Shown one piece after another: positions 18,319 to 34,928 of a DNA stretch of 64,000 bases. The DNA is taken from contig CALAJQ010000004.1 of NCBI GenBank assembly GCA_937922785.1, forward strand, positions 62,001 to 126,000. The letters run 5' to 3'. Both the position numbers and the translations under genes were made by a program. The notes beneath the pieces were generated by a model. It ran no database searches, was not told the origin of the DNA, and saw only the letters and a list, made by a program, of their open reading frames with translations. Position 1 is the stretch's first letter. Each line of letters begins with the position of its first letter. The DNA is from an uncultured Acidimicrobiales bacterium. GTDB lineage: Bacteria; Actinomycetota; Acidimicrobiia; Acidimicrobiales; SZUA-35.

Positions 18319-19121
18319 GAAATATTCCTTGCCAGAACTGCTGATAGGGGTTTGAGAATTGCTCGCCGGTGGGCCTGGGACCCATCGGAGGCGAAGTTAC
18401 GGACAGCGTCGATACCAGCCCGGGTGTAAAGACGCAGTCGGTCACGATCGATGGCAGTGCCCGCTAGTTCATAGCCAGCGATTACCGCATCGATCATGGC
18501 CCGCCCAAACACCGCGGACCGACCAAGCGCCACTGGGTTAGCAGCCCGACCCACCAGATGGGCTACCAAGATTGCCAGGTCGAGTTCCGGATAGTCGATG
18601 TTGAGGACGTGCACCGAGGTGTACTGGTTTGGACTCGGGTCGATGACCACTAGGTCCTGCCCGTTCGTCACGAAGATATTGGTAAAGCCGAAGTCCCCGT
18701 GCTGCAACACACAATGTTCGGAGTCAAGGTGGTCAGCACTGGTCCTTGCCGCTAACGCGTTGGCAAAAAGATCGGAACGCTGAAACTCAACCGACTCGGG
18801 AGGAACGGGGATCTGATGAATTTGGCCGAGGCAACGTCCAACCGTGGATAGGAGGCTAAGAATCGACTCACGGGAACGATCGGCAGCGCCCAACACATCC
18901 ATCAGCGATTGCGAGCAGTCAACCAACTCATACTGAATCGAAGCTTCGTTGCTGCTGTTAGCTATGACTGCCGGAGCAGTGAACAGCGAACCTTGTGAGC
19001 GCTCATGAAGCAGCCGGGCTTTGATCAGCTCGTTGCCGAACTCATCAGCTATGTACTGCTTTGTAAAGCACTGCTGGGTTGAGCACTGCTGGGTTGAGGA
19101 TTGCTGTGTGAAGTTATCCAT
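18315..19121 (-). CDS. APH-family kinase with repeated Gln/Cys N-terminus
   Basis: A 268-residue phosphotransferase. Seen: the catalytic loop CVLQHGDFGFTNIFV and the metal-binding VVIDPSPNQ, where the usual DxE/DxD aspartate is kept (VIDP). The ATG at 19121 is chosen because it overlaps the previous stop as TGATG; TTG 19133 and GTG 19124 are alternatives. Odd: residues about 4-20 (FTQQSSTQQCSTQQCFTKQ) come from a 15-base tandem duplication, giving a Cys/Gln repeat not expected in the family. It is the middle gene of the coupled GT2, phosphodiesterase, kinase, methyltransferase and flippase series, so a sugar or polyol kinase role is inferred. Confidence 0.72.
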   Translation of the reverse strand: MDNFTQQSSTQQCSTQQCFTKQYIADEFGNELIKARLLHERSQGSLFTAPAVIANSSNEASIQYELVDCSQSLMDVLGAADRSRESILSLLSTVGRCLGQIHQIPVPPESVEFQRSDLFANALAARTSADHLDSEHCVLQHGDFGFTNIFVTNGQDLVVIDPSPNQYTSVHVLNIDYPELDLAILVAHLVGRAANPVALGRSAVFGRAMIDAVIAGYELAGTAIDRDRLRLYTRAGIDAVRNFASDGSQAHRRAILKPLSAVLARNIS

Positions 19122-20509
19122 CACAGCGACCAACTAGGCGTGCGGTGATGGTCCAGTGGCGCCACACCAAGCGCGTTCAGAATGCCCGGGGCAACCTCGA
19201 GGAGATTCATCGATTCTGGAACAACGGCGTTAGGAGCGTTCCAAAGGGCAAAGGTGCCAACCGGGTCGTGCACGCCACAAGTGTGGTCATCGATGCCTTC
19301 AACCAGGAAGCCGGCTTCGTTCATTGGGGTCGCGAATCCGCCGGAGCCGACCAGTTCGGTATCGGCATCGAGCCGGTAGGTGACGCTCAATAGATCTTCA
19401 ACGACATCGACCTCAATCAACCCGCCAATGAACGGGTCGCTGATCAGCCGCTTGCCTTCGGTTGCTGCAATATCGGCGTCAGCCAACCGCCACGACTGCG
19501 TCGGGATCATCGCTCGAACCGCTTCGGATTCTTCTGGAAGACCAAGTGCCTTTGCGAACTGGTGGGCATTCCGCAAGACCGGTGCAGCGGTCTTTGCCGT
19601 GTCGACGTTTTGGTTTGCTCGCTGGCCCATGCTGCTTACCAGCAATAAGGCTCGGTCGGTCTCTTCGGCCCACTGCATTAGTCGACCGACAGTTCTATCC
19701 AGTTGAGCCACGGCGGCGGAGATCTCGTTCTTGTAGCGGTCACGCCATGTGTCGGGATAGATCTTGCGATCCCAGTCTTGGGGAAACATGGCATACCAAT
19801 AACGATGCATCATCGCCGCTACATGGTTCGTGAAATAGCTGCAGAGGTCCGGATCCTGCTTTTTGGCCAAGTGCACAAACACGTCACTGAAGACCAGATC
19901 TTGACCCAAACGCAGCCGTTCCGGAGGGATCTGCTTTGCTGCGATTGAACCGACCAACGCCCCTAATCGGGCAACCGTTTGCGGGCTCATTCCAGCGCCA
20001 ACGAGCGAGCCAAGACCAGCGGCCGATTTCAGGGAGCCGACAAGTGAGCTTTTTCGACCGTTGCCTTGGGTCAGCTTGATGTTCGCTGCCTGAGCCCGGC
20101 TGTAGCGGTCGGGCTTGGTCCTTGAGTCGTCAGCGAAGCAGTCCGGTATGGCAAAGGAGATGTTCGGGTTCGATAGTGACTGTTCGAACGGGCTTGAGTG
20201 CAAAGTGCCAACAAGACCAACCGAGCGCCCGGCATCGGCCGCTGCCTGCCAGTAGAGCGGATACGAACTGGGCTTGGGGTCGCCGTACCAGTAGACGCCA
20301 TGTGAGTCGTAATCGATACCCATCGCCAGCGTTGCCCAAGTCTGGGACGGGTACAGATATCTGTCGTCGGCTTCAACCGACACAACGGTCTCGCCGACCT
20401 TTCCAGCCGACAGAAGACGCTCGATGTTGGGCGCCTTACCCTGGCCAACGACTTCGCGTAGTACGCGTAGCGGAACCTCATTCGCTTCGATGACAACTAG
20501 ACGCTTCAT
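19121..20509 (-). CDS. Type I phosphodiesterase / alkaline-phosphatase-superfamily protein
   Basis: A 462-residue protein starting MKRLVVIEANEVPL. The open frame extends 21 codons further, but this ATG overlaps the upstream stop as ATGA and begins the fold. Seen: metal and nucleophile region EADDRYLYPSQTWATLAMGIDYDSHGVYWYG (candidate nucleophile Thr in QTW), GVYW, and LLLVSSMGQRANQN, where alkaline phosphatase-superfamily proteins place a metal-binding Asp/His segment. Here the usual D-H pair is replaced by SSMGQ, so catalysis is uncertain. Relatives hydrolyse or transfer phosphate or phosphoglycerol groups and occur in glycan clusters. Confidence 0.68.
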   Translation of the reverse strand: MKRLVVIEANEVPLRVLREVVGQGKAPNIERLLSAGKVGETVVSVEADDRYLYPSQTWATLAMGIDYDSHGVYWYGDPKPSSYPLYWQAAADAGRSVGLVGTLHSSPFEQSLSNPNISFAIPDCFADDSRTKPDRYSRAQAANIKLTQGNGRKSSLVGSLKSAAGLGSLVGAGMSPQTVARLGALVGSIAAKQIPPERLRLGQDLVFSDVFVHLAKKQDPDLCSYFTNHVAAMMHRYWYAMFPQDWDRKIYPDTWRDRYKNEISAAVAQLDRTVGRLMQWAEETDRALLLVSSMGQRANQNVDTAKTAAPVLRNAHQFAKALGLPEESEAVRAMIPTQSWRLADADIAATEGKRLISDPFIGGLIEVDVVEDLLSVTYRLDADTELVGSGGFATPMNEAGFLVEGIDDHTCGVHDPVGTFALWNAPNAVVPESMNLLEVAPGILNALGVAPLDHHRTPSWSL

Positions 20510-21324
20510 GACGATGATCCCACTGACAGCAAACGCTTGCGGTGTCGGACCAAGTACCGAGCCACGGCCCACATGTGGCGAATGCCCGACTTGTTTATGG
20601 GTCGGCGGTGGCGTCGGCGCGGCGGGTGAATGACCATTTCGCCAGCGAGCTGGCGGACGGGAAGCCCTGAATCGAGAACGCGTAAGCAGAAGTCAACATC
20701 TTCTGGGCCATAAAAGAACGACTCGTCTATGCCGCCAACTTGCTCCCAGGCCTCCCTAGTGAATAGCTGGCAAGCTCCGATGCCAAAGTCGACAGGCCAC
20801 GACGTGTCGGTGCTATCAACTAGCGGTTCATAGGTCGCAGTTAGGCCAAGCACACGTTTTGCCTTCACGATCAGACCTGGCGCAAGTCCTGCACTGGCCG
20901 AAGGGTCCTGATCAACAAAGGTTGGAACCACTACGCCAGACGCAGTGCGTTCGAGCTCGGCCGCCATTGACACAACTGCGTCAGGCAAGAGTTCGGCATC
21001 GCTATCGAGCAACATCACAAGTGGAGCAGAGCCGGCTGCGATGGCCTGGTTGCGACCCCTGGCCACTCCAGCGTTTTTCTCGTTGCGAATTAGGGTCGCT
21101 CGGGGCGGAACAACAGCTGGAGGTTCAGATCCGTTGTCCACAACAATCACGTTTACCGAAACATCGCGGCTCGCAAATGCAGACGCAATCGCTGCTTCCA
21201 GTAACTGTCCGTCATTCCACGTGAGAATGGCGATGTCGACCTCATAGCGAGAGGGCTCCCCGGCGGATAGAGAATCGGGTCGGGGACGTGCAGAAAGGCC
21301 CGAAGTGGCAACGTTGGCCGTCAT
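20506..21324 (-). CDS. Family 2 glycosyltransferase
   Basis: A 272-residue GT-A fold glycosyltransferase. Seen: VDIAILTWNDGQLLEAAIASAFA near residues 29-51, VNVIVVDNGSEPP, NEKNAGVARGRNQAIAAG, the metal-binding LLDSDAELLP (DxD), and FFYGPEDVDFCLRVL with the ED catalytic pair typical of rhamnosyl- and related transferases. It uses a nucleotide sugar to extend a glycan at the membrane. The stop overlaps the start of the phosphodiesterase gene. There is a 59-base gap to the ThDP enzyme upstream, with a tandem repeat in it. Confidence 0.85.
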   Translation of the reverse strand: MTANVATSGLSARPRPDSLSAGEPSRYEVDIAILTWNDGQLLEAAIASAFASRDVSVNVIVVDNGSEPPAVVPPRATLIRNEKNAGVARGRNQAIAAGSAPLVMLLDSDAELLPDAVVSMAAELERTASGVVVPTFVDQDPSASAGLAPGLIVKAKRVLGLTATYEPLVDSTDTSWPVDFGIGACQLFTREAWEQVGGIDESFFYGPEDVDFCLRVLDSGLPVRQLAGEMVIHPPRRRHRRPINKSGIRHMWAVARYLVRHRKRLLSVGSSS

Positions 21325-21354: not shown

Positions 21355-21395
21355 TTTAGTGGGCTAATCCGCCTTTTAGTGGGCTAATCCGCCTT
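21355..21395. repeat. 21-bp tandem repeat at the end of the ThDP enzyme gene
   Basis: TTTAGTGGGCTAATCCGCCT plus T occurs at 21355-21375 and 21375-21395, a period of 20 bases. The second copy covers the last codons and the stop (CTA at 21384-21386) of the minus-strand ThDP enzyme gene, so in gene orientation the terminal segment, stop included, is repeated once downstream of the real stop. Confidence 0.75.
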
Positions 21396-23012
21396 AAGCG
21401 GGCCCCGGACCTCATTCATTCGCAGATACGGCCAGGGATTAGGCACGTCTCCCATTTTGGCAACAATCAGTGATGGGCCATCGTGGGCGAAAGCGGCAGA
21501 TAAAGCTGGACGTAACTCATCTGGAGTGTCAGCCCGCTGGCTGTGGATTCCGAAGCTCTCGCCGAACTTCACGAAGTCGGGATTTTGCAGGTCAGAGGCA
21601 ATGGTTCGATCTTTACCGAAGCGCAGTTCCTGGATCCGCTTTACGTTGCCGTAGGAAGCGTTGTCATAGACGATGATGGTCACAGCAATGTTGTGCTGGG
21701 CAGCAGTTGCGAGTTCGGTGGCGCTGAACAAAAACCCGCCATCACCAACAATCCCCAACACGTTTTGGCTTGGAAGAGCGGCCTGCGCGCCAATTGCATG
21801 CGCTACTCCGGCACCAAGGGCTCCGGCGGTGCCCGAAGTAAGGAAGGAACGAGGATGCCGAAACTCGAACATCAAGTGGGCGGCGAAACCGATTTGGGTT
21901 ACGTCTTCTACGATCACGCCGTCGTCAGGCAGGACGTCGCGGATTGCTTCTAGCTGCAATCTTTGGGGTTCAAGTTCGGCGGCAACTGTGGAGTTGAAAT
22001 GGGCCCGACGCTCTGCCACCAGTTCAACCACACCAGACCGGAACCTGTTTTGCGGACCAACGGCATCCATTAAGGCGATGGCCCCCGCAGCCGCATCAGC
22101 GTGAATTCCGATAGCTCCCAGGTTGCGGCGGGTTAGTTCGCTTTCGTCGATGTTAAGCATCACGATCGTGAGGTCTTCGTCGACGCCCCAGTGGAGAGGA
22201 AACTCAAGCCGGGTTCCAACCGCCAGAACCACGTCTGCGTCACGCCAGAACTCGCGACCGACGGTCAGCGGAACATAAAGTTCGTGGCGGGAGTCGACAA
22301 CGCCGTGGCCTTGGCGCCTGGTGGTCACCGGTGCCTGAAGCATCTCTGCCAAGGCCGTCACCTCGGCGCTTGCATCGTGAGCCCCGCCGCCAACCACGAT
22401 GAGGGGACGTTCGGCTTTGGCCAGCGCAGCAGCAGCAGCCTCGATCTGTGCTGGATCGATCGATGGCGCTTTGCGCTGTGGCGCAGTAAGGATTCCGTCC
22501 GCCGGTGCTGACCAAACGTCGACCGGTACTTCGATGCTCACTGGCCTTGGTTCGTTTTCCATTAGAGCGGCTAAAGCAGCACTGATTGTGCCTGGCGCGG
22601 ACTCACCATCAGAGACATAGGCGGCGTGCTTGGTCAGGTTGGCCAGAACTTGGGTCGGATCGGGAAGATCATGTAAGACGCCGGTCTTTTGGCCTTTGAC
22701 TCCGTGCGGGATGGCCCCGATCAGGCCCAGTACCCGGCCGCCCGCCCAGTAGGCAGAGTTCATGCCGGCAGATGCGTTCAACATGCCCGGTCCAGGGACA
22801 ACACAAAAGGCCGCTGGCTGTCCCGTGGCTTGTGACGCACCCATGGCCATCAAAGATGCGCCCTGTTCGTGCCGACACACGATGGGTCTGATATCGCGTG
22901 CATCAACCAATGCGTTAAAGAAATCATCGTTCTGGATGCCCGGAATGCAGAACAAGTTCTTGATGCCCAACTTGCGCAGTCCGTCGATGGTCAGGTCGGC
23001 CACGGATGTCAT
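21384..23012 (-). CDS. Thiamine-diphosphate enzyme of the acetolactate synthase/decarboxylase group
   Basis: A 542-residue ThDP-dependent enzyme with N-terminal Pyr, central and C-terminal PP domains. Seen: an early CRHEQGASLMAMGAS carrying the catalytic Glu, GPGMLNASAGMNSAYWAG, and the PP motif GDGGFLFSATELATAAQHNIAVT...YDNASYG (GDG...N metal-diphosphate site). The start at 23012 (MTSVADLTIDGL) is preferred over the 12-codon longer frame. Function could be decarboxylation or carboligation of a 2-oxo acid. It may supply a sugar or acyl precursor to the downstream glycan genes. It is divergent from the selenoprotein candidate with a 34-base gap. Confidence 0.85.
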   Translation of the reverse strand: MTSVADLTIDGLRKLGIKNLFCIPGIQNDDFFNALVDARDIRPIVCRHEQGASLMAMGASQATGQPAAFCVVPGPGMLNASAGMNSAYWAGGRVLGLIGAIPHGVKGQKTGVLHDLPDPTQVLANLTKHAAYVSDGESAPGTISAALAALMENEPRPVSIEVPVDVWSAPADGILTAPQRKAPSIDPAQIEAAAAALAKAERPLIVVGGGAHDASAEVTALAEMLQAPVTTRRQGHGVVDSRHELYVPLTVGREFWRDADVVLAVGTRLEFPLHWGVDEDLTIVMLNIDESELTRRNLGAIGIHADAAAGAIALMDAVGPQNRFRSGVVELVAERRAHFNSTVAAELEPQRLQLEAIRDVLPDDGVIVEDVTQIGFAAHLMFEFRHPRSFLTSGTAGALGAGVAHAIGAQAALPSQNVLGIVGDGGFLFSATELATAAQHNIAVTIIVYDNASYGNVKRIQELRFGKDRTIASDLQNPDFVKFGESFGIHSQRADTPDELRPALSAAFAHDGPSLIVAKMGDVPNPWPYLRMNEVRGPLKAD

Positions 23013-23046
23013 GGTGTGAGTATCGCAGTGTTGTAGGTTGACGGCC

Positions 23047-23592
23047 ATGTCATTGGTCAGACCTGTATTGGACCAGCCTGCGCCTGCGGTAGAACTTCCA
23101 GATTCCAGCGGCGAGCTCTGGCGACTCTCTGATCTGGGTGGCTCTCAGGTTGTGCTGATCTTTCACCGTCACCTTCGTTGACTTCCCTGCTCAGAACATG
23201 TCCTCGCCGTGCGCGAACGGATCGATGAGTTTCCTCCCAAGACAACGATCGCAGTCGTCACATTTAGTGCGCCCGAAATGGTTGCTGCCTATGTGGAACA
23301 TCACCACCTTGAAATACCTGTGTTGATCGACTCTGAGCTGGCCACTTACCGGGCATACGGTCTCGAACGTGGATCAAAATTGCGCGTCTGGGGCTGGCGT
23401 GCGGCCTGGCGCTACGTGCAGATCCTATGGAAGCACAAGGGCTTAGGAGCTCTACAGTCGACCGACGAGGACACTCTCCAGCTTGGTGGTGACTTTGTTA
23501 TCGACGCCGACGGAAACTTGGCTTATGGATTCTGGGGCGACGGCCCCGATGACCGACCCTCTGTTACTGAACTGATCCAAGTGCTGGGCTAA
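23047..23592 (+). CDS. Candidate selenoprotein: peroxiredoxin-like protein with UxxC motif (in-frame TGA)
   Basis: Read with TGA at 23179-23181 as selenocysteine, this frame gives a 181-residue protein from the ATG at 23047. Seen: MSLVRPVLDQPAPAVELP and DSSGELWRLSDLGGSQVVLIFHR form the N-terminal strand-helix-strand of a thioredoxin fold. Residue 45 is the TGA and residue 48 is Cys, giving HRHLR-U-L-P-C-SEH. The rest follows the AhpC/TSA_2 peroxiredoxin-like family: VVTFSAPEMVAAYVEHH, VLIDSELATYRAYGLERGS, LQLGGDFVIDADGNLAYGFWG and DDRPSVTELIQVL. In this family a Cys-x-x-Cys stands at that point. Role: thiol-dependent peroxide reduction or redox exchange. A conventional call starting at GTG 23209 would lack the active site. 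No sel genes are in the window. A sequencing error is the main alternative. Confidence 0.78.
23197..23227 (+). promoter_or_regulatory. Putative bacterial SECIS stem-loop
   Basis: Downstream of the TGA at 23179, the mRNA can fold as CAT-TCC-TCGC (23197-23199, 23201-23207), a CGTGC apical loop (23208-23212), and GCGA-GGA-ATG (23213-23216, 23219-23221, 23225-23227): 10 base pairs with small bulges. The loop starts 26 bases after the TGA and has a G at its second position. Family knowledge: bacterial SECIS elements lie in the coding region just after UGA, with a guanosine early in the apical loop, and bind SelB. The fold was found by eye; its energy has not been computed. Confidence 0.5.
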
Positions 23593-23610
23593 TCCAGAGA
23601 CTGGGCTGAT
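23584..23610. repeat. Near-repeat at the end of the selenoprotein candidate gene
   Basis: CTGGGCTAAT at 23584-23593 contains the TAA stop, and CTGGGCTGAT follows at 23601-23610, period 17, one mismatch. It is the same pattern of a gene end repeated just downstream as at 4114, 21355 and 26571, here weaker. The repeat also lies in the 3' end of the opposing TIGR03084 gene. Confidence 0.4.
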
Positions 23611-24398
23611 TGTGGTGCTGGCCCATCTGTAGGGTCGCCGGCGAAGCACTGTGCCTTAAGGAGCCAGTCACGAGCCGATTCGCCCTCCACTACCAGGGCG
23701 GTGTCGTCTAGATGCCTTCGTTGGGTCACTACCTGGCAGAAGTCTTCCGCTAGTCCGATCACAGATTCCGCAGCGTCATCGGGTCCAAAGTCCCATATCT
23801 GGCCAGTTGGCGACTCAAGGCTTACTCGGACAGCCACTGTTGGTGCGTCGAGTTTGCGGTTCTGGTAGGTCCAGCCTCTGGTGATGAAACCAAGCTGGGC
23901 GATGTGACGTATGCGATCGGTCGAAGTCCGCTCAGCGCCGATCGTGTCGACGATGTCTTGACCGTGAGCCCACACCTCCATTAGGCGCGCAGTCAGAAAC
24001 GATTTTGAGCCCATGGACGGCCCATACCAAGGCACCCTCGTGTCGTTTTTGAGCGCTGCAGCGGCTGCAACCAGCCCGGCCCGGTCGGCCCTCCAAGACT
24101 CAAGCAACTGGGCAGGATCTTGAGCGAGGTAGCTTCCAACTGTGTGCTCGTCCATTGCGTCAGGCCCAGCCGAAGCCACCTCCCACAACTCAGACACCAT
24201 CGATTTGAAGCCGTCTGGGTCGGTGATGGCCAACGCCGCTGTGCCGTCGAAATAGGCGAGGTGGGCGATCTGTTCTTTGATTCGCCACCGAGGGCTAGGG
24301 GTAGCTAGATCCCATTGCTCAGCTGTGAGGCCCGCAACCACATCGTCAAGGGCCTCCTGTTCAGCGACTAGGTCGGCCAGCACGTCTGATACGTCCAC
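23589..24398 (-). CDS. TIGR03084-type DinB-like metal-binding protein
   Basis: A 269-residue protein of the maleylpyruvate isomerase/DinB-like superfamily seen in mycothiol-using actinobacteria. Seen: an N-terminal four-helix bundle with LVAEQEALDDVVAGLTAEQWDLATPSPRW, KEQIAHLAYFDGTAAL (metal His), LMEVWAHGQDIVD (metal Glu and His) and a C-terminal domain with GQIWDFGPDDAAESVIGLAEDFCQVVTQRRH. Relatives are thiol-dependent transferases or isomerases. It lies 6 bases downstream of the acyl-CoA dehydrogenase gene and overlaps the stop of the opposing selenoprotein candidate. Confidence 0.8.
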   Translation of the reverse strand: MDVSDVLADLVAEQEALDDVVAGLTAEQWDLATPSPRWRIKEQIAHLAYFDGTAALAITDPDGFKSMVSELWEVASAGPDAMDEHTVGSYLAQDPAQLLESWRADRAGLVAAAAALKNDTRVPWYGPSMGSKSFLTARLMEVWAHGQDIVDTIGAERTSTDRIRHIAQLGFITRGWTYQNRKLDAPTVAVRVSLESPTGQIWDFGPDDAAESVIGLAEDFCQVVTQRRHLDDTALVVEGESARDWLLKAQCFAGDPTDGPAPQSAQSLD

Positions 24399-25717: not shown

Positions 25718-26584
25718 ATGTCTTTAGGCGGATTAGGGCGATCGCTTTTGGAGGCCAAGCCTCTGGAAGCCAGGATTTTGAAGGTAGGGCTGTTAGTAGT
25801 CGTTGGCGTGGTCGGCGCATGCTCCACTGGTTCAAGGGCGATCGAGACCACAACCGGCTCAATTACCTCCCAAGAGGAACCAAGTGCTGAAGGTTCTGAG
25901 ACCGATCCCGAGACCGACTCGAATCTTCCGGACGTTTTCACCACGTTGCCGCCGGGGTCCGAACTTCCTGACACAAGCCAGTGCGCCGCCGCTATTGCGC
26001 AACGAAACATCACTGATGACCCAATTGTGGGTAACGCGGAACAAAACCAAACGAGAGGCAAAATCTCTGTAGACATCGACGGTGCGAGCGAGCAAACAAA
26101 CGCACGGCTGGCGTCTCGGGTCGTCGGAGACTTCACCGGCACCACCGAAGAGATCCTGGTGTGGGGCGCATGCAAATGGGGCTTCGACGAGGACATCACG
26201 AGGGCCCGCGCGGTCGCTGAAAGTTCTTGGCGAATGAGTACCTTCGGCGACCCAAGCAGCGATGAGTCGGAGTGTTCGGCTATGGAGCTAGCTACGCCTT
26301 GTGATCAAAGCTACGGGCTGCTCCAGGTAAAGGGATCAGTCCATCTCGGCACCTACCCCACCAGTCTGGAGTCAACCTCCTTTGGCGTCGACTACGCGAT
26401 GGCGTGGCTTCGCTCATGTTATGAAGGATCATTCACTTGGTTGGACGACCAGGGTTATGAGGTTGGAGACGAGTGGGGTTGCGTCGGCGCTTGGTTTTCT
26501 GGCAATTGGTATGACAATTCAGCCAAGGAATACATTGAGGTCGTCCAAGGCCATCTGCGAGACAAGACCTGGCTCAGTTACTAG
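25718..26584 (+). CDS. Lytic-transglycosylase-like lipoprotein
   Basis: A 288-residue exported protein. Seen: a hydrophobic core VGLLVVVGVVGAC with a lipobox (VGA-Cys near residue 35), a Ser/Thr/Glu/Pro linker (about 36-85), then a goose-lysozyme/SLT-like fold: AVAESSWRMS, where Glu is the likely catalytic acid, SYGLLQVKGS, VDYAMAWLRSCYEG and CVGAWFSGNWYD...YIEVVQGHLRDK. Expected role is cleavage of glycan strands at the cell surface. The assignment is from motifs. It starts 65 bases from the divergent acyl-CoA dehydrogenase gene. Its last codons are tandemly repeated downstream. Confidence 0.68.
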   Translation: MSLGGLGRSLLEAKPLEARILKVGLLVVVGVVGACSTGSRAIETTTGSITSQEEPSAEGSETDPETDSNLPDVFTTLPPGSELPDTSQCAAAIAQRNITDDPIVGNAEQNQTRGKISVDIDGASEQTNARLASRVVGDFTGTTEEILVWGACKWGFDEDITRARAVAESSWRMSTFGDPSSDESECSAMELATPCDQSYGLLQVKGSVHLGTYPTSLESTSFGVDYAMAWLRSCYEGSFTWLDDQGYEVGDEWGCVGAWFSGNWYDNSAKEYIEVVQGHLRDKTWLSY

Positions 26585-26627: not shown

Positions 26628-27623
26628 CTACGCGAAGTATCGGTACAGCAGGCTCCCTGCCGACTTGGTCAATTCGGGGTCGACCTCGGGAGCGGTTAGC
26701 AAGTCAGTAAGCGCCCCAAGCGTTGCCCCAGCCGCCGCGCCCTGAGGGTTTGACCATGATTCGGGAGTCCAGTGAAGTGTGCTCAACTCGACACTTTCGC
26801 TAGCGAACTCAGACTTGAAGTTGATCAATCCAGGCTGGCTGAGATCGCTGCGTCCAAGATCTATGAGGCTAAGACCAAGCTCGATGCCGATTTCACACGC
26901 CTTTGAAAACAAAGCTCGGTTGCAGGCAACAGGGTGTTCGACGGAGGCTCCGAACTTGTAATAGGCAACCCCGTTCCAAACGAAGAAAACCATTCCGGCA
27001 ATCGGTTCTCCAGCTTCTTCAGCCAACAACACAAACATCTCGGATCCGAAGTTGCTGCTAAGAGCCTCGAACAGCTCGAAGGGCTGAGCCAACATGCGGT
27101 ACTTGTCCTTCCTCAGACCCACATGCATGTTGTGATACTTCTCATAATCAACAAGTTCGCAGGACTGCCGAATTTGGATGCCCTTCTTGGCGGGCTTTCG
27201 GGCACGGTTCCGACTGCTCGAACTAAGGCTTGACCAGAAGATCTCGAAGTCATCGGGCAGACCAATCCCATGCCAAAGGACTTCCTTCCGCTGCTCAAAG
27301 CGAGAGTCACTCAAGGCGAACTTGTTTTCGAAAGGCTTCACTGTGACCGGCACGTTGAAGCTTAAAAGATGATCAGCGAAGTCATCCCAACCAGTTTGGG
27401 TCTCGAACGTTGGATCGCAGAAGTCGCTAAAGGGGGTGGACACAATTCGATCACCCCGAAGATCGCTTAGGAGTGAGAACAATCCGAAAGCGTCCGGTTC
27501 AGCCGGACTTGTGAACTCTCGAATTTGAAGGTCAAAGACGTCTTCCAGTGCATCGCGCCACGGCCGAGAGTGAAAAAGGGTTGGCTCGGTGATACCGGTC
27601 ATTATCGAAGATTGGGGTTTCAT
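26628..27623 (-). CDS. FemAB/GNAT-like acyltransferase
   Basis: A 331-residue protein of the FemAB-like GNAT group (BioF2-type). Seen: the N-terminal FHSRPWRDALEDVF, SSRNRARKPAKKGIQIRQSCELVDYEKYHNMHVGLRKDKYRM, and the second GNAT half LLAEEAGEPIAGMVFFVWNGVAYYKFGASVEHPVACNRALFSKACEIGIELGLSLIDLG, the pattern used by FemX-like proteins that transfer aminoacyl or acyl groups. In polysaccharide operons such proteins are thought to modify sugars. It is the last gene of the coupled operon and starts inside the stop of the Alg14/13-like gene (ATGA). Confidence 0.78.
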   Translation of the reverse strand: MKPQSSIMTGITEPTLFHSRPWRDALEDVFDLQIREFTSPAEPDAFGLFSLLSDLRGDRIVSTPFSDFCDPTFETQTGWDDFADHLLSFNVPVTVKPFENKFALSDSRFEQRKEVLWHGIGLPDDFEIFWSSLSSSSRNRARKPAKKGIQIRQSCELVDYEKYHNMHVGLRKDKYRMLAQPFELFEALSSNFGSEMFVLLAEEAGEPIAGMVFFVWNGVAYYKFGASVEHPVACNRALFSKACEIGIELGLSLIDLGRSDLSQPGLINFKSEFASESVELSTLHWTPESWSNPQGAAAGATLGALTDLLTAPEVDPELTKSAGSLLYRYFA

Positions 27624-28549
27624 CGGAGGTCTACCTTTCCTGTGGCAAGTCTCGCCACCTGTTTGCTTGCCGCCTCTAGCAAGTGGGTTAGTTCGATTTC
27701 GTCAGCCTCAACTGTTACGGCCAGCCCGTGGTCCAAAGCCCACGTCGCCAGCTCGGCCTGGTGATCGTCGACCTGTTCACCGTGTTTGAACCGTCGCGGC
27801 ACATAGACCGGCACCTTGCCAGCGTTCAGAGCCATTAACAGAGAGCCACACCCAGCATGGGCAACAACAACGTCGGCCCGATCGATTGCGCTAATCAATT
27901 CGTCTTCGGGAACCATCTCCCGCCCATCGATATCCAGGCCCGCAGTATTTGACTTGCCGGTCTGCCAAAGCACTTCGGCATCAGCGGGGATCACCCGAGC
28001 GAGCGGTTCAATCAACCGGCGGAAGTCATGCGATGTCGTGCCGACAGTGACGACCACCTTCTGGATTGAACTCTTGGACTCTCTATCCGATGACTGGAAC
28101 GGGTCAAAGATGCCACCGAGGTGCCTAAAACCAGCAGGTGTCTGCTCATACTGCCACCAGGTCTTGACGCCCGGTACGTAGCGAAGAAGTTTGCCGGTCA
28201 CAGAGGGCGCGGTTACACGAGCAGAGCATTCAATGTAATGAGCGTCGATGCCTAGCACCGCGGCCATCGGGAGGTAGCCCAGAGCAATCGCCGACCCGGT
28301 GCTGACAACCCTCGACACGCTGTGTTTGCGCAAGAGCGCCTTCGCGTCTTTGGTCGAACGTAGAACTCCGGCCACGTCACGCTCATCGATAAAGGGGACA
28401 AACTCAACGTTACGACCAGCCAGAAGGTCCCGAGTTTGGGCGTTCTCGTTGGTGATCCAGACCCGGTCGCCATCGCCTGCAATGCGGTCGGCCAATGCCA
28501 CAAGCTCAGAGATGTGGCCGCCGATCGTGGCTACAAAGGCAGTGGTCAC
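27620..28549 (-). CDS. Fused Alg14/Alg13-like glycosyltransferase
   Basis: A 309-residue protein. The GTG at 28549 is chosen because AAGGAG stands just before it and it overlaps the upstream stop (GTGA); the open frame continues 16 codons further without family sequence. Seen: an N-terminal half like Alg14 (FVATIGGHISELVALADRIAG, VVSTGSAIALGYLPMA) and a C-terminal GT28-type half like Alg13 (VVVTVGTTSHDFRRLIEPLARVIPADAEVLWQTG, ADVVVAHAGCGSLLMALNAGKVPVYVPR). In other bacteria these halves are usually separate genes (EpsE/EpsF or PssD/PssE) that add the second sugar to a lipid-linked primer. Membrane-associated cytosolic enzyme. Confidence 0.82.
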   Translation of the reverse strand: MTTAFVATIGGHISELVALADRIAGDGDRVWITNENAQTRDLLAGRNVEFVPFIDERDVAGVLRSTKDAKALLRKHSVSRVVSTGSAIALGYLPMAAVLGIDAHYIECSARVTAPSVTGKLLRYVPGVKTWWQYEQTPAGFRHLGGIFDPFQSSDRESKSSIQKVVVTVGTTSHDFRRLIEPLARVIPADAEVLWQTGKSNTAGLDIDGREMVPEDELISAIDRADVVVAHAGCGSLLMALNAGKVPVYVPRRFKHGEQVDDHQAELATWALDHGLAVTVEADEIELTHLLEAASKQVARLATGKVDLR

Positions 28550-30975
28550 TTCGCTCCTTCTCCGCGCACTACACCCGCAGCAGTCCCGAGAATGCACCGC
28601 GTGTCTGTGGCTGGACTCATTTGCTCCAGGTACTCCAAGTCGAGTTCGAGCATTTCGTTCATGGCCACGTCACCTCTGCCGCTGATTTGCCAAAGACCAG
28701 TTACGCCCGGTCTCACTTGAAGCCGTTTCCGCATGGCTGGTGGGAACAGTTCGACCTCCCACAGAAGAGATGGCCGAGGACCCACCAGCGACATGTCACC
28801 ACCCAAGACGTTGACCAGCTGGGGAAGCTCATCCAGTGAGGTACGCCTTAGGAACTTGCCAATTCTGGTGATGCGCGGGTCGTCTGCATCTTTGACTCCT
28901 GGAGCTTCGCCTGCGATTTCAGCTTCGTTCTGGGCCCGGTGCGCGCTGTCGTCGTTGTCGATGAACATCGTCCGGAACTTCAACAGCTGGAACGGCACGC
29001 CGCCAGCGCCGATACGAGTCTGCCTAAACAGAACGGGACCCTCGCTGCTGCGTTTCACTAGGTAGGCGCATACGAGCCCGATCGGTGCAGCTAGTACGAC
29101 TCCGATAAGACACAACACGATGTCGGTGGTTCGTTTCCAAAGCGGAATCCTGTGACCAACTTCGAGTCGGATCGCTGGCATGTCTCGACGACGGTCCGAG
29201 CGCGATGCAATGTCGGGTGCGGTGTCGTACCGCTCTTGTTCCAAGTCCGCGGCTAGGCGGGCGGCCTCCACAAGTTCGGAACGGTTTGAACGCATCTGAA
29301 GCGGAGTGTCTACGAGCGCTTGGCTACCGTAGGCAAGAGAGTCCAGCTTTAGTCCGCCCGAAACCAAAGCGATGGCCCGCCAAATAAGCGCTGCAGCATC
29401 GGCATCGATCGCTACAACCGAGTCAGTCAACAACCCATGCAAGGCTGAACTGCGGCGGACGAATCGAAGGTGGGCTGTGCCGATCATCGTGTCTTTGTCC
29501 CGGACCACCAAAAGCATTTGCGATTCAGTCTCCGCCTCGGTCTTGGGGTCAGCAACCCATCGTTGAGACAGCTCTAATGATCTTCTTAAGTACGTGAACA
29601 ATGCTGCGTCGAAAGCTAACGACCCCTTGGATTCACCAATTTGTAGCCGTGCTGTGTGTCGCGCTTGTACTGCAGACCCTGCACCCATCAGCTGACTCCA
29701 TCGCGCCTTTGGACCAGAAAGGCGGGCCAACGGTGGCAGCGGTGCAAGCGCTATTGGGATCATCATAAAAAACAGATCAGCTCCGCCTCGGAGCGTGATG
29801 TGAGGGTCGATAACACTCATGACCGCAATTAGTGCAATTGCAGCCCGGGCGGAAACTCGAGCCACCGCCGCCGTGCCGTTGTGAGAGTGGGCCCGAATAC
29901 CTGAACCGGTCGCGCGCCAGCACGTTCCGAGGAAGGCCACCATCGCCGTCAACAACGGGATCCCGCCGACCCACAACATCCACAGATAGCCACTTTCAAG
30001 AAACACTTCGTCGCGGAACACATCAACCGGGGTGACGATCGCGTCGGGGCTCACACCAAGTAGCCATCCGCCATCAGCAATCTGTGGCCAATAAATGTCG
30101 CTGAGGTTGCTCCATCTAATCACCCAGCTTTGGGGAAGGCCGGTTCCGCCATCGATATCGGCCAGTCGGGCCGCAACCACCTGCCAGAGGCCCAGGGTTG
30201 CGAGCGCCCCAGCCGGTATTGCGGCCGCAGCGACCATTGCCAAGGCCTTGTACTCATATGCGACGACAAAGACCACAACGCCCAACATGATGACCGTGCC
30301 GGCCTGACCTGATGCCAACGCGCCGATGCCCAAAACACACGAAACCCCAAGCCATAAAGCCCGACGTGTCGACAGAGCGAGGGACATAGCAACACCCAAG
30401 CTCATCGAGAGGAAGGCGCCAATGGCGATGGAAGAACCCAAAGTGGCCGTGGCCCGGCCACCCAGCACATCGTCAGTGGGACCACTCACGAAAAAGCTAC
30501 CTAAGACATTGACTACTGGACCCACGCCTAAGACTTGGGCCACGCCGACAACAGACACAACAACTGCAGCTGCCAACACCGCGCCAAACACGGCTCGAAC
30601 GTCGCGTGCGGACACGATCGAGAACCGAACAAGGAAGTACAACGCCGCGTACTTGATTAGCGGGAAGACAGCCATGACCTCGTCGCCGCCAACCGGCATC
30701 GAGCGAACCTTCAGCCAAAGCAGGGGAACTACCGAAGCGAAGAACGCCATGGCCATTAGCCACCACTCGTGAGATCGAATGGTGAGTCGCCAGCGTTCTC
30801 CAGTCAACTGTGCTCGGAAGGCTAGAGCTATTGCTCCGGCGGTAACCAACAGCTGAATGACTTCAGTGGGGCGCAAGAACGGCACAATCTCGCCCCGAGG
30901 CATTCCCGCCAGAAGCGGCATGGTGAATGCATAGAGACAGACCAGAAGCACTCTTGGCGACAGCGTCATAGTCAC
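28546..30975 (-). CDS. O-antigen polymerase/ligase-like domain fused to an initiating phosphoglycosyl transferase
   Basis: An 809-residue bifunctional membrane protein. Residues 1-420: about ten transmembrane helices with a Wzy_C-like FLESGYLWMLWVGGIPLL near 326-342. Residues about 450-600: a soluble middle region of unknown type. Residues 611-809: a bacterial sugar transferase of the WbaP/WcaJ group with an N-terminal membrane helix (613-641), RIGAGGVPFQLLKFRTM (654-670), DDPRITRIGKFLRRTSLDELPQL (698-720), GDMSLVGPRP (726-735) and RPGVTGLWQISGR. The initiating enzyme loads a sugar phosphate on undecaprenyl phosphate. Having it fused to a polymerase-like domain is unusual. The GTG start overlaps the flippase stop (GTGA). 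Confidence 0.85.
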   Translation of the reverse strand: MTMTLSPRVLLVCLYAFTMPLLAGMPRGEIVPFLRPTEVIQLLVTAGAIALAFRAQLTGERWRLTIRSHEWWLMAMAFFASVVPLLWLKVRSMPVGGDEVMAVFPLIKYAALYFLVRFSIVSARDVRAVFGAVLAAAVVVSVVGVAQVLGVGPVVNVLGSFFVSGPTDDVLGGRATATLGSSIAIGAFLSMSLGVAMSLALSTRRALWLGVSCVLGIGALASGQAGTVIMLGVVVFVVAYEYKALAMVAAAAIPAGALATLGLWQVVAARLADIDGGTGLPQSWVIRWSNLSDIYWPQIADGGWLLGVSPDAIVTPVDVFRDEVFLESGYLWMLWVGGIPLLTAMVAFLGTCWRATGSGIRAHSHNGTAAVARVSARAAIALIAVMSVIDPHITLRGGADLFFMMIPIALAPLPPLARLSGPKARWSQLMGAGSAVQARHTARLQIGESKGSLAFDAALFTYLRRSLELSQRWVADPKTEAETESQMLLVVRDKDTMIGTAHLRFVRRSSALHGLLTDSVVAIDADAAALIWRAIALVSGGLKLDSLAYGSQALVDTPLQMRSNRSELVEAARLAADLEQERYDTAPDIASRSDRRRDMPAIRLEVGHRIPLWKRTTDIVLCLIGVVLAAPIGLVCAYLVKRSSEGPVLFRQTRIGAGGVPFQLLKFRTMFIDNDDSAHRAQNEAEIAGEAPGVKDADDPRITRIGKFLRRTSLDELPQLVNVLGGDMSLVGPRPSLLWEVELFPPAMRKRLQVRPGVTGLWQISGRGDVAMNEMLELDLEYLEQMSPATDTRCILGTAAGVVRGEGAK

Positions 30976-32570
30976 GACAGGTCCCCTCGGTTAAGTGAGT
31001 CTGACAGCATTCGAATCATCGCCCCGCGTTTTGTGAGCAACCATGCACTTCCGATATAGATCGAAAGCGCCGCCACAGCGACCGCGGCGGGCTTCGCGGC
31101 ACCAGCATTGAGCCATTGACCTGAATTGAAAGACCGAACGATCAGCGCCATCGGAACGAATGCGATCACGCTTGCTATTGCCACGCCGACGGCATGATTC
31201 TCTGCGTCGGGCACCCAAAGCGGCTCTCGGCGTAGGCCTCTGTGCACGAAGTAGAAAGCGACCACATCTCCCATCGACACGACCACACCCAATGCCAGCA
31301 ACAAAGCGGGGCCATCCACCAGCGCTACCGCAGCTGGTATTCCAACAACAGCACTGACGGCCCGGGCTAGGTTGGCCTTGCGTAGTCCGGCGGCATTGCC
31401 AAAGGCCATGGTTGTTTGGCGTGATATCTCAAACAGTGCATCTGAAGCAGCCCCGACGCCCAGTCCGGCAAGTCCGTATCCAAGCATCTTGATGGGCTCT
31501 GAGCTAGCGAACTTTCCGAACGCCATCACGTTTGCTAGGGCGCCGCTAAGCGCGATCAGCCCGACACCGGCAGGTATGCAAAGCCAAGCGCCTAACCTAA
31601 TCGCGCTTCGGTACTGCCCAAGAAAGGTTGCTGACCCCGGCTTTGATTGAGCCAACTTCACTAACGCTGCGCCAGCAATCGGCCGGCCCACAAGTGCGGT
31701 CGGAATGTAATAGGCCAAAGTGGCCAGCTCGAACGCTTGCACGCCACCCCGACCGGCGTACCCAGCCGCGATGATGAGCCCGAAAGCTCGCGCCGCAACA
31801 GTTGCCGACCAACCGAAGGAGTCCTTTACTTGGCTAGAAAGGGCCTTTATGTCCGCGGCCCGCCGATCGAAGCCAAGGCTCAAACCTCCACTCGCCCATC
31901 TTGCTCCGACGTACTGCACCGCAACGTGAGCTATCACCGCAAGACCCGAACCGATGCCTAAGAACCAGATTGCGTTCCTGGAGCCCGCTCCCCCTTCCAT
32001 GCCGTTGGGGAAATGCCTCGCAACGAGAACGATGGTTGCGATGATGCCAAGGTTCTCAACTATCGGGGCCATCGAGGAAACCAGGAATTTCCCGTGGGCA
32101 TGCTGAGTGGAGACAAAAACTCCAATGGCGCCATAACACAAGATCTGGGGCAGGATCAGCACCAGTAACAGCGACGCCGTCGACTTAGCCAGACCAGAAG
32201 AAGCGCTGTCGAAGCCGGCGGTCAGAGCCGACGCAATCAGGCCGTTCAATGCAATTGCGATGACCACCACAAACCCAAGCGCTCCAAGGACCAGCCCAAG
32301 GGCGTTAGCCAACAAACGCTTGGCAGCCGCGTCTTGTCCCAGTCGGAGATATCGCACCGTTGGCGGGACTAGTACCGAGGAAATCGCAGACCCTGCGAGC
32401 ACGTCGTATAGCAACAGCGGCAACACATTGATTGCCACAAACAGATCGCCTCCGATTGTGGGTCCAAGCAAAGCTCCTGCGGCAAGGATTCTCCCAAACC
32501 CAGATGCGCGGCTTGCAATGGTTCCGATGGCGATGGTCGAAGAGTTCTTGACTACTCCGCTGTCAGCCAC
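30972..32570 (-). CDS. MurJ/MviN-like lipid-linked glycan flippase
   Basis: A 532-residue protein of about 14 transmembrane helices. Seen: STIAIGTIASRASGFGRILAAGALLGPTIGGDLFVAINVLPLLLYDVLAGSAISSVLVPP near residues 11-70, matching the N-terminal fold of MurJ proteins, and LVLGALGFVVVIAIAL. MurJ flips lipid II; operon-borne paralogues like this one flip capsular or exopolysaccharide repeat units, which fits its place between the Wzz-like and polymerase genes. The stop overlaps the polymerase start, and its start overlaps the Wzz-like stop by 8 bases. Confidence 0.82.
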   Translation of the reverse strand: MADSGVVKNSSTIAIGTIASRASGFGRILAAGALLGPTIGGDLFVAINVLPLLLYDVLAGSAISSVLVPPTVRYLRLGQDAAAKRLLANALGLVLGALGFVVVIAIALNGLIASALTAGFDSASSGLAKSTASLLLVLILPQILCYGAIGVFVSTQHAHGKFLVSSMAPIVENLGIIATIVLVARHFPNGMEGGAGSRNAIWFLGIGSGLAVIAHVAVQYVGARWASGGLSLGFDRRAADIKALSSQVKDSFGWSATVAARAFGLIIAAGYAGRGGVQAFELATLAYYIPTALVGRPIAGAALVKLAQSKPGSATFLGQYRSAIRLGAWLCIPAGVGLIALSGALANVMAFGKFASSEPIKMLGYGLAGLGVGAASDALFEISRQTTMAFGNAAGLRKANLARAVSAVVGIPAAVALVDGPALLLALGVVVSMGDVVAFYFVHRGLRREPLWVPDAENHAVGVAIASVIAFVPMALIVRSFNSGQWLNAGAAKPAAVAVAALSIYIGSAWLLTKRGAMIRMLSDSLNRGDLS

Positions 32571-33813
32571 GATTCAGTTGGCGTCGTCGTTGCAACCAGG
32601 CGGCAAGCGCCACAAACGGAAGCCCTAGAAGTGCCCCTATCACCATGCCCTGAAGCTTCGGTGAGTTAGCTGGCTCTGATAGAACGCCTGCTTCGCTCAA
32701 GATTTGCACTGGCGCGGCGTCGAATGCAGTCAGCTCTCTGCGGGTGATCTCAGATTCGACTTCTGCCAACTCATTGCTCACACGTTCAACATCACGAGCC
32801 AGGTTTGGTTCGGCGGTAACTGCTTCGGCCAACGCTGCCCTGTTGGTTCTGACCGTCAACAGCTCTTCGGTGTAAGTGTCTAGCTCTTCGGTGGCGTTGT
32901 CTAGCTCGACTCGCAACGCTTGCTGTGCGCTTGCGCTAGTTGGGCGCACCAGCTGTTCGTCCAGTAGAGCTTCAAGCGAAGCGATGCGATCTGAGGATGC
33001 CGAGATACGTCGTCCCAGCTCTTCTTCGGTGGTCTGAAGCTCAATGTCGGCCAGCTGGCGTGCTCCAAGCGCTTTCACTTGTTCATCTAGCTCACCGAGT
33101 TCAACCTCGAGCTGTTCGCGCCGTCCTTCTAACTTTGAAACATCAGCAATTGGCGAGGCGACCTCGGCTGCTTTGAGGTACTCGGCTAGAACTGCCTGGT
33201 TTACCCCAAGTGCGACAGCCGGATCGGGGTGACGAACATCAAGCCTGATCACCTCAGACAAGTCAACTGTCTCAACCGAAACACGCTTGCGAAGCTCCTT
33301 CACTTCAAATCCGTAGGTCGCCGCAACCGGTGCGATAACTGCCTCGCTATTGAGGGTGGCGATTTGGGTGAGAAGGCGGCGGTCTTCGCGCAGGTAGCCA
33401 TCGGGAATTGACTCATCGAGAGTGAAAATGAACTCGGCTCGAGCAAGACGATCGGGATCGGTGCTGGCGCCTGACAGAAATCCAAGTGTCATGAATGTGG
33501 CCAGGATGATGCAACTGACGCCCAGCACCGACATTAGTTGGGCAAAGCTCCAGGACGGGCGGGCCGCTTTGACGCTCCAGGGGTCCATGCGATAGTCGCT
33601 GCGCAGTTGATCGGGGCGCACTTGATCGGGATTCAGTCGTTCCGGGTAGGCAACAACACCGCTCTCGGGCTGGGGGGCGGGCTCAACCTCTGGCTGGTCG
33701 AATAGCGACGACCGGTTATCAACACCGGCTGAATCGGAGGATAGGACGATGCGCTCTCGTTCCTGTCGAGGCACCGGCTTTGGCCAGACCCTTGGTTCGT
33801 CAGAGATGGTCAT
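32563..33813 (-). CDS. Wzz-like polysaccharide chain-length determinant
   Basis: A 416-residue two-helix membrane protein. Seen: a proline- and charge-rich cytosolic N-terminus (1-80), a transmembrane helix VLGVSCIILATFMTLGFLSG near 94-113, a long periplasmic stretch of coiled-coil character (for example RREQLEVELGELDEQVKALGARQ and a long Glu/Leu-rich run to about 365), and a second helix MVIGALLGLPFVALAAWL at the C-terminus with an arginine tail. This is the Wzz/KpsE/copolymerase topology. No C-terminal tyrosine-kinase domain is fused and none is adjacent. It starts inside the DegT gene stop (4-base overlap). Confidence 0.8.
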   Translation of the reverse strand: MTISDEPRVWPKPVPRQERERIVLSSDSAGVDNRSSLFDQPEVEPAPQPESGVVAYPERLNPDQVRPDQLRSDYRMDPWSVKAARPSWSFAQLMSVLGVSCIILATFMTLGFLSGASTDPDRLARAEFIFTLDESIPDGYLREDRRLLTQIATLNSEAVIAPVAATYGFEVKELRKRVSVETVDLSEVIRLDVRHPDPAVALGVNQAVLAEYLKAAEVASPIADVSKLEGRREQLEVELGELDEQVKALGARQLADIELQTTEEELGRRISASSDRIASLEALLDEQLVRPTSASAQQALRVELDNATEELDTYTEELLTVRTNRAALAEAVTAEPNLARDVERVSNELAEVESEITRRELTAFDAAPVQILSEAGVLSEPANSPKLQGMVIGALLGLPFVALAAWLQRRRQLNRG

Positions 33814-34928
33814 AGGTGCTCAGAAACTCGGGAGGCCACATACTCGACCTCTTGGGCGGTCAGCGTGGGGTGCATTGGAAGCGACAATTGGTGTTCGGCA
33901 GCATCTTCGGCAATCGGCAACTCAGAAATGTCGAATTCGGAGAACGCCGGATGTTTGTGACAGGGCTGGGCGTAGTGGATTCCGGTAGCGACTCCGTTAC
34001 TGGCCAGCCACTCCCTCATCGAGTCTCGGTTGTCCACCCTGATAACTTCCAGGTGGTGAACTCCGACAGTGTGTTCGGGAGTGCTCAGCATCTTTACTGA
34101 GGTGTGGTCAAAGTGTTTGACGTAGAGGTCATGCACAAGTCGGCGATGGTTGTTCCACTGATCCAGGTAACCCAACTTGATATCGAGTGCCGAGCCTTGC
34201 AAACCATCAAGTCGGCTATTGCGGCCGCGATGAGTGTGTAGGTGGTGGTCCCAGCGTCCGTGATTCGCCAGTGTCCGAATCTCAGTTGCAAGGGCCTCGT
34301 TGTTGGTCACAACTGCCCCGCCATCCCCAAGAGCACCCAGGTTCTTCCCAGGATAGAAACTGAACGTTGCCGCTGTGCCGAAGCTCCCGGCCTTACGTCC
34401 TTTGTACGTAGCACCGTGTGCTTGAGCTGCGTCTTCGATCACGTCGATGCCGGCAGCGGCCGCAACGTCGATGATTGGGTCCATGTCTGGAATCTGGCCA
34501 TACAGATGAACAACCATCACTGCCCTGGTTCGTCTCGTGATAGCCGAAGAAATGGCCTGGGGAGTAACAAGCAACGTTTCGGGATCTACATCAACAAACA
34601 CCGGCGTTGCTCCAAGAGTGACAACAGCTTCTGCCGTAGCCACAAATGTATTTGCGGGAACAATTACCTCGTCACCTGGCCCTACTTTGAGAGCGGCAAG
34701 TACCAGTTCGAGCGCGTCAGTTCCATTGGCAACGCCTACACAAAAGTCGACTCCGCAGTAGTCGGCCCAGTTCGATTCAAAGCGAGCAACAGTTGGGCCG
34801 CCGATGAAACCTGAGGTCTCAAGTGCGGTGTTCCACGCGTCGTCGAGCTGCCGACGGATCGGTTGATGCAGTTCTTGGAGATCAAGAAATGCAACCGACA
34901 TCTCCGATGTTGGAATAACCGACATCAC
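33810..34928 (-). CDS. DegT/DnrJ/EryC1/StrS-family sugar aminotransferase
   Basis: A 372-residue PLP enzyme. Seen: ANGTDALELVLAAL, GDEVIVPANTFVATAEAVV, VHLYGQ, DVIEDAAQAHGATYKG (PLP ring-stacking region), and the PLP lysine in FSFYPGKNLGALGDGGAVVT. Such enzymes aminate keto-sugar nucleotides. Adjacent to a Gfo/Idh/MocA oxidoreductase, the pairing matches WbpE/WlbC with WbpB/WlbA, which make UDP-3-amino-2-acetamido sugars; that is an inference from context. The GTG at 34928 overlaps the previous stop as GTGA. The first 12 codons contain a repeated ATGTCGGTT, so an internal ATG is possible. Confidence 0.86.
   Translation of the reverse strand: MMSVIPTSEMSVAFLDLQELHQPIRRQLDDAWNTALETSGFIGGPTVARFESNWADYCGVDFCVGVANGTDALELVLAALKVGPGDEVIVPANTFVATAEAVVTLGATPVFVDVDPETLLVTPQAISSAITRRTRAVMVVHLYGQIPDMDPIIDVAAAAGIDVIEDAAQAHGATYKGRKAGSFGTAATFSFYPGKNLGALGDGGAVVTNNEALATEIRTLANHGRWDHHLHTHRGRNSRLDGLQGSALDIKLGYLDQWNNHRRLVHDLYVKHFDHTSVKMLSTPEHTVGVHHLEVIRVDNRDSMREWLASNGVATGIHYAQPCHKHPAFSEFDISELPIAEDAAEHQLSLPMHPTLTAQEVEYVASRVSEHL

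Follow-up and report, generated by a model that had tools for sequence, protein, structure and literature searches.

Peroxiredoxin-like selenoproteins with the UxxC motif, where U stands for selenocysteine (Sec), have been catalogued repeatedly: in 2005, they were listed among the families known before (PMC1088965), and they reappear in the lists of 2008 (PMC2398784), 2022 (PMC9312934) and 2026 (PMC13188914). The motif of the Sec peroxiredoxins is quoted as PxxxTxxU (PMC13188914). Given that UxxC proteins were catalogued by 2005, this kind of protein is already known, in agreement with the first-pass annotation of the locus described here, which had noted such proteins as known from other bacteria (PMC1088965, PMC13188914). 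The lineage seems to be little studied for selenium. Judged by title, no selenoprotein study was found in a literature search with “selenoprotein” and “Acidimicrobi”, and the family name of the NCBIfam model NF040769 (SelL-related redox protein), in three spellings, was not found in the literature searched; “NF040769” and “SelL” are both absent from the main text of the 2026 review (PMC13188914).

A reading frame with a single in-frame TGA

We analyzed a stretch of 64,000 nucleotides (hereafter, the window) from an uncultured Acidimicrobiales bacterium, in which a predicted selenoprotein gene fills the gap between the genes for a thiamine pyrophosphate (TPP) enzyme and an MDMPI_N/DinB-type protein (Table 1). 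When TGA is translated as U, a frame of 181 residues extends from ATG 23047 to the stop codon TAA at 23590-23592 without a second internal stop, and the TGA is located three residues ahead of Cys48, in the motif U45-LP-C48. Plain gene calling yields solely a fragment of 127 amino acids that starts at GTG 23209; this fragment does not include the active site, and standard calling would shorten the gene. The first-pass annotation had described the same C-terminal fragment, the same frame from ATG 23047 broken by the single TGA at 23179 and otherwise free of stops, and the same U-L-P-C motif, and our gene calling and translation agree with it throughout.

By a crude estimate, about 1.4% of random 181-codon frames with the same base composition would be free of TAA and TAG. 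The G+C content at codon positions 1, 2 and 3 is 0.73, 0.43 and 0.52 upstream of the TGA, and 0.67, 0.43 and 0.60 downstream of it; these values are close to those of three further genes in the window, for which the third-position G+C is 0.61-0.66, somewhat above that of the short N-terminal part. A stop-tolerant scan of the window (readthrough frames of at least 90 codons, less than 45% within called genes) returned five frames including 23047-23592. In our reading, this frame alone resembles a genuine protein; the other four, considered as a possible second hidden selenoprotein, appear spurious.

Table 1. Features of the predicted selenoprotein locus (positions in the window)
Feature	Position	Strand	Evidence
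Thiamine pyrophosphate enzyme, divergent neighbour	21384..23048	-	Pfam TPP_enzyme N, M, C
Complete gene, predicted SelL-related UxxC redox selenoprotein	23047..23592	+	Translation with TGA as U, NF040769, Pfam AhpC-TSA, full-length homologues
In-frame TGA, predicted Sec codon (U45)	23179..23181	+	Same aligned residue in 34/34 subclade sequences, window included
Cys48 codon TGC	23188..23190	+	Invariant in the 34-row subclade and 20-row mixed alignments
Predicted SECIS hairpin	23197..23227 (offsets 18-48, counted from the T of TGA)	+	Window fold, synonymous-site conservation, shuffles, pair counts
MDMPI_N/DinB-type protein, convergent neighbour	23589..24398	-	Pfam MDMPI_N, 94.2 bits

The longest frame of the TPP enzyme overlaps the start of the predicted selenoprotein gene by 2 bases; the next Met of this enzyme (residue 13, near 23012) would leave room for a promoter, so that the start of the longest frame may be wrong. 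To compare the neighbourhoods, we clustered stop-to-stop frames with 100 codons or more in the flanks of 34 loci of the subclade delineated below; the flanks covered 6 kb per side in the window, as much as about 4 kb in L052-L055, and no more than 1.5 kb in the remaining loci. In these short flanks, neither an operon partner nor a conserved neighbourhood was found, and the largest frame groups span 5 of the 34 loci. The one of these largest groups in which the window is represented consists of an acyl-CoA dehydrogenase, which belongs to a large paralogous family. The first-pass annotation had placed the novelty in the lineage and the neighbourhood; the short flanks contain no conserved neighbourhood, and both the family and the motif are already known. 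Elsewhere in the window, a run of minus-strand frames at 26631-36001, some of which look, from their translations, like glycosyltransferase-, flippase- and sugar-transferase-type proteins, is perhaps a surface polysaccharide cluster. The frames 25718-26584 and 19121-20572 have no Pfam match at 1e-5.

Family assignment

Once the TGA is translated, the Pfam AhpC-TSA family aligns to residues 9-160, spanning the TGA (61 bits; cut-off 26), and NF040769 matches residues 10-179 with 137.5 bits by hmmscan (curated cut-off 120) and 128.6 bits in the genome search. The AhpC-TSA_2 family (PF13911), which we take to be linked to the PRXL2/SelU group, matches residues 65-162 only (46.9 bits; cut-off 27), so that the UxxC lies outside its match. 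The AhpC/TSA_2 type named in the first-pass annotation therefore needs a minor amendment, NF040769 being the better name. Ten of the 33 subclade members besides the window were scanned with NF040769; 8 pass its cut-off and 2 fall just below (116.4 and 115.2 bits).

Relatives in the subclade, the order and the phylum

Matches to the window protein at E <= 0.001 were detected in 127 of the 198 related genomes (own genome included). The 57 best matches (E <= 1.1e-9), from 56 of these 198 genomes, each contain exactly one TGA; the first stop-free match is partial (E 2.9e-9). We read 34 loci, namely, 4 named records and 30 of the 57 best-match loci, one of which is that of the window; all 34 have the TGA at the same residue, within HRHxxULPC in 33 cases and TRHxxULPC in one. 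The other 33 sequences share 41-55% identity with the window protein, and the 34 rows form one branch of the tree (support 100/98), which we denote the HRHxxULPC subclade. As checks, the first-pass annotation had suggested looking in homologues for Sec or Cys aligned at residue 45 and for the N-terminal segment; one or the other residue aligns there, and the segment is kept.

We also searched 397 genomes of the order, a draw that overlaps the first, with a profile of the 34 sequences. At E <= 1e-15, 59 genomes have a match, 56 with one TGA and 3 without (not all of these were read singly), and all 38 matches of at least 170 bits contain one TGA. Twenty of the 21 matches below 170 bits were read: U is found within RHR[YH]U[LI]PC in 10 and within LRHFGUxxC-like motifs in 7, and the 3 stop-free matches carry Cys at this position, in the motif VRYYGC[LM]PC (L093-L095). 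The TGAs of the 17 more distant matches place U at the same aligned residue as in the subclade. RHR[YH]U[LI]PC (L096-L105) represents a second subtype in the order, with the TGA in 10 of the 10 rows read.

The NF040769 cut-off is passed by 16 of 396 genomes of the phylum: a single TGA is present in 13, and the other 3 are stop-free and have Cys at the site. The phylum search provided 30 loci, 28 of them new (21 with Sec and 7 without U); of the latter, L058, L063, L069, L074, L078 and L081 have Cys at the site, and the motif of L085 is unclear. In the tree, L081 (Cys) adjoins L083 (Sec), a pair that possibly reflects a Sec-to-Cys change; L081 has no hairpin at the place of the hairpin of L083. 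L076 and G222:C130:56125-57194, two TGA-containing matches of the NF040769 type, lie in tandem, 77 bases apart, in a further genome of the phylum.

Selenocysteine machinery

The genome that contains the window (4.9 Mb, 45 contigs, 95.7% complete) encodes selA (384.6 bits) and an adjoining selB (275.2 bits) on contig C21, selD (368.1 bits) on C16, and tRNA-Sec on C45 (66.7 bits; ARAGORN SeC, anticodon tca), so that all four components that the first-pass annotation had proposed to search for are present. The selD gene (L019, G000:C16:164748-165671) contains one in-frame TGA of its own, in UGCK, and is itself a predicted selenoprotein gene; the fold downstream of this TGA is stable (-22.7 kcal/mol in 54 nt).

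Across the 198 relatives, selA was detected in 127 (E <= 1e-40), namely, in 54 of the 56 TGA carriers vs 73 of the 142 non-carriers (Fisher p 8.5e-11, not corrected for relatedness). In the remaining two carriers, G055 and G100, selA was not detected and no selB scored over the cut-off. Both assemblies are fragmented, with about 290 contigs in G055 and about 750 in G100, and contain a tRNA-Sec over the gathering score; in G055, a piece matching the selB C-terminus is located near a contig end; we read these absences as missing assembly. No selA was detected at E <= 1e-40 in G143, which contributes one of the three distant matches free of stops.

A predicted SECIS-like hairpin

The predicted hairpin of the window consists of an inner stem of 4 bp with a 5-nt apical loop, CGUGC (23208-23212), followed by a two-base bulge, 4 bp, another two-base bulge and 3 bp, and its loop lies 26 nt after the UGA. 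Taken alone, the window copy has the right shape, yet 40% of its own synonymous shuffles fold at least as well. Its energy is -7.9 kcal/mol in a 50-nt fold and -7.4 in a 30-nt fold, the latter just short of the value used for membership, and in a 66-nt fold (z = 0.63), the minimum is another structure.

For the 34 subclade genes, the mean energy over offsets 18-47 from the start of the UGA is -11.2 kcal/mol vs -8.3 in 300 synonymous shuffles, and none of the 300 reaches the subclade mean energy, inner pairing or apical-loop position; 23 of the 34 genes place the apical loop at 29-33, vs 15% in shuffles. The codons with the tightest synonymous choice in these genes are +8 to +11, which lie beneath the stem and loop, together with -1, +1 and +2; restriction is weaker at -8, -4, -3 and +14. 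The GU in the loop is not evidence because a conserved Val codon dictates it. The broader Sec rows have a hairpin at offsets 28-31 in 19 of 21 cases, mostly with the loop AGUU (shuffle maximum 12; 0 of 200 reach 19), whereas in the six Cys relatives, the hairpin shows no clear excess over shuffles (present at the place in 2 of 6; position reached by 69 and energy by 34 of 200 shuffles).

In the pair counts for the 19 broader Sec rows, standard pairs occupy 134 of 152 cells (14-55% in slid versions), and 5 of 8 pairs show double changes, a value that one slid version (+3) also attains; L075 and L084, where the hairpin is absent at that place, were left out of this count alone, which favours the hairpin. 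The 34 subclade rows have 186 of 238 standard pairs (25-42% in slid versions) and double changes in 5 of 7 (2-4 in slid versions). Both tests on the broader rows, hairpin and pair count, leave out L068 and L077 (repeats of the window and L034, respectively) and L085 (no clear motif). RNAalifold, with the 34 subclade rows as a block, returned no structure; the register of the outer stem shifts between rows, and the hairpin signal is visible in the shuffle and pair-count tests. An Rfam search over 22900-23700 gave no RNA-family match up to E 5.

Predicted structure and mechanism

The AlphaFold model, built from an alignment of five rows, has a thioredoxin fold with a mean pLDDT of 77.3 (below 50 in residues 110-118 and 134-144), and residue 45 is directly ahead of helix 46-57. 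Model and motif together place [U/C]xxC where the active-site helix of a thioredoxin-like fold begins, a feature that was defined from the rows read. The top Foldseek matches in the PDB are the BCP, AhpC (AhpC2) and AhpE peroxiredoxins, with ResA within the first 12 (TM by target about 0.6-0.83 for the BCP, AhpC2, AhpE and ResA rows). In the alignment with 2ywn, R41, U45 and C48 correspond to the Pro, the Thr and the peroxidatic Cys of PxxxTxxC, so that the window protein has neither the Pro nor the Thr of the canonical peroxiredoxin motif; the position of Sec45 is that of the first Cys of the thioredoxin CxxC. With Sec45 at the Thr/first-Cys position and Cys48 at the peroxidatic position, a thioredoxin-type reductase is likelier than a classical peroxiredoxin, and, from what is known of the family, the protein is probably a disulfide or peroxide reductase of that type.

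We are highly confident that the gene encodes an intact thioredoxin-fold enzyme with a predicted Sec at UGA codon 45, incorporated via SelB, tRNA-Sec and the hairpin. SelB and tRNA-Sec would decode this UGA as Sec, with the hairpin directing the insertion. Sec45 would be the attacking residue, its selenolate reacting with a peroxide or a disulfide, and Cys48, the putative resolving Cys of the UxxC, would resolve the intermediate through a Sec45-Cys48 selenenylsulfide. At a guess, the enzyme might then be re-reduced by a cellular thiol system, either thioredoxin or mycothiol/mycoredoxin as in other actinobacteria. In a search for the mycothiol reductant, the mshC model gave matches of 434.6 and 268.9 bits, both below the cut-off of 485.1.

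Alternative explanations

A frame that is intact apart from one stop, and from which plain calling retrieves the C-terminal fragment alone, is also what a young pseudogene looks like, namely, a Cys-type redox protein inactivated in this genome by a nonsense mutation. The Sec machinery in the genome argues against such an origin, as does the recurrence of the TGA, one in every match at E <= 1.1e-9 and at the same residue in all the diverged sequences read. A chance nonsense mutation or a read error is thereby excluded as a general explanation, which bears out the first-pass argument that a random mutation would be unlikely to hit that codon; judging from the sequences of the relatives, a pseudogene is refuted in this general form, and for this genome, we consider it very improbable. 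An error of sequencing or assembly that turned a Cys codon into TGA has a negligible probability because the same TGA is found in the assemblies of many other species.

The frame from GTG 23209 does exist, and the UGA could, in principle, be an ordinary stop followed by re-initiation at this codon to produce the 127-residue protein. However, GTG 23209 lies inside the predicted hairpin loop, the fragment would be devoid of the first strands of the modelled fold as well as the active site, and in the 34 loci read, conservation extends to the N-terminal part as well as to the UGA, although these are best matches, among which fragments are under-represented; altogether, re-initiation appears extremely unlikely. 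As regards decoding of the UGA as an amino acid other than Sec, a frame opened by translating TGA as any residue is silent on which residue is inserted. Nevertheless, Cys occupies the site in those stop-free homologues that were read, the TGA carriers go with selA, and the SECIS-like hairpin of the Sec rows shows no excess in the Cys rows, so that we assign hardly any weight to another amino acid. Selenocysteine thus is our preferred reading of codon 45.

Implications and comparison with known systems

If correct, the Sec reading adds a redox selenoprotein to this lineage. The part that might merit specialist attention is the Sec-only state of the subclade. No Cys form of the HRHxxULPC subclade was found in the two overlapping genome draws from one order, and genomes of this order without selA usually lack the HRHxxULPC gene. 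The three stop-free matches of the order were considered as such a form and rejected because VRYYGCxPC is a different subtype. We can suggest only tentatively that the subclade is strictly Sec-dependent; if so, its reaction would depend on a selenium chemistry for which Cys, in this scaffold, is no substitute. A Sec-only subclade next to relatives in which Sec and Cys are mixed would be a natural test of why some enzymes retain selenocysteine.

Among the known groups, the window protein passes the NF040769 cut-off over nearly its whole length and, as in the phylum members read, where Sec or Cys occupies the same residue, has its redox residue at this site; its subclade differs in having HRHxxULPC, whereas most other members read have LRH[YF]GUxxC or a similar motif. 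SelL contains a UxxU motif, the second Sec of which is replaced by Cys in the window protein (C48 is Cys in 34/34). SelL is also Prx-like, as described in the GOS paper (PMC2398784), and is named as a relative by the NCBI model. The UxxS selenoprotein catalogued under AhpC-TSA_2 (PMC9312934) differs from the window protein in its motif, UxxS rather than UxxC, and PF13911 matches only the C-terminal part of the window protein, with the active site outside the match. The Prx-like UxxC selenoprotein of the Sargasso Sea and GOS surveys (COG0450 / PF00578) is, like the window protein, a relative of AhpC-TSA in which UxxC replaces the TxxU of the Sec peroxiredoxins (PMC1088965, PMC2398784, PMC13188914); these entries are broad, and the likeness is one of description rather than alignment.
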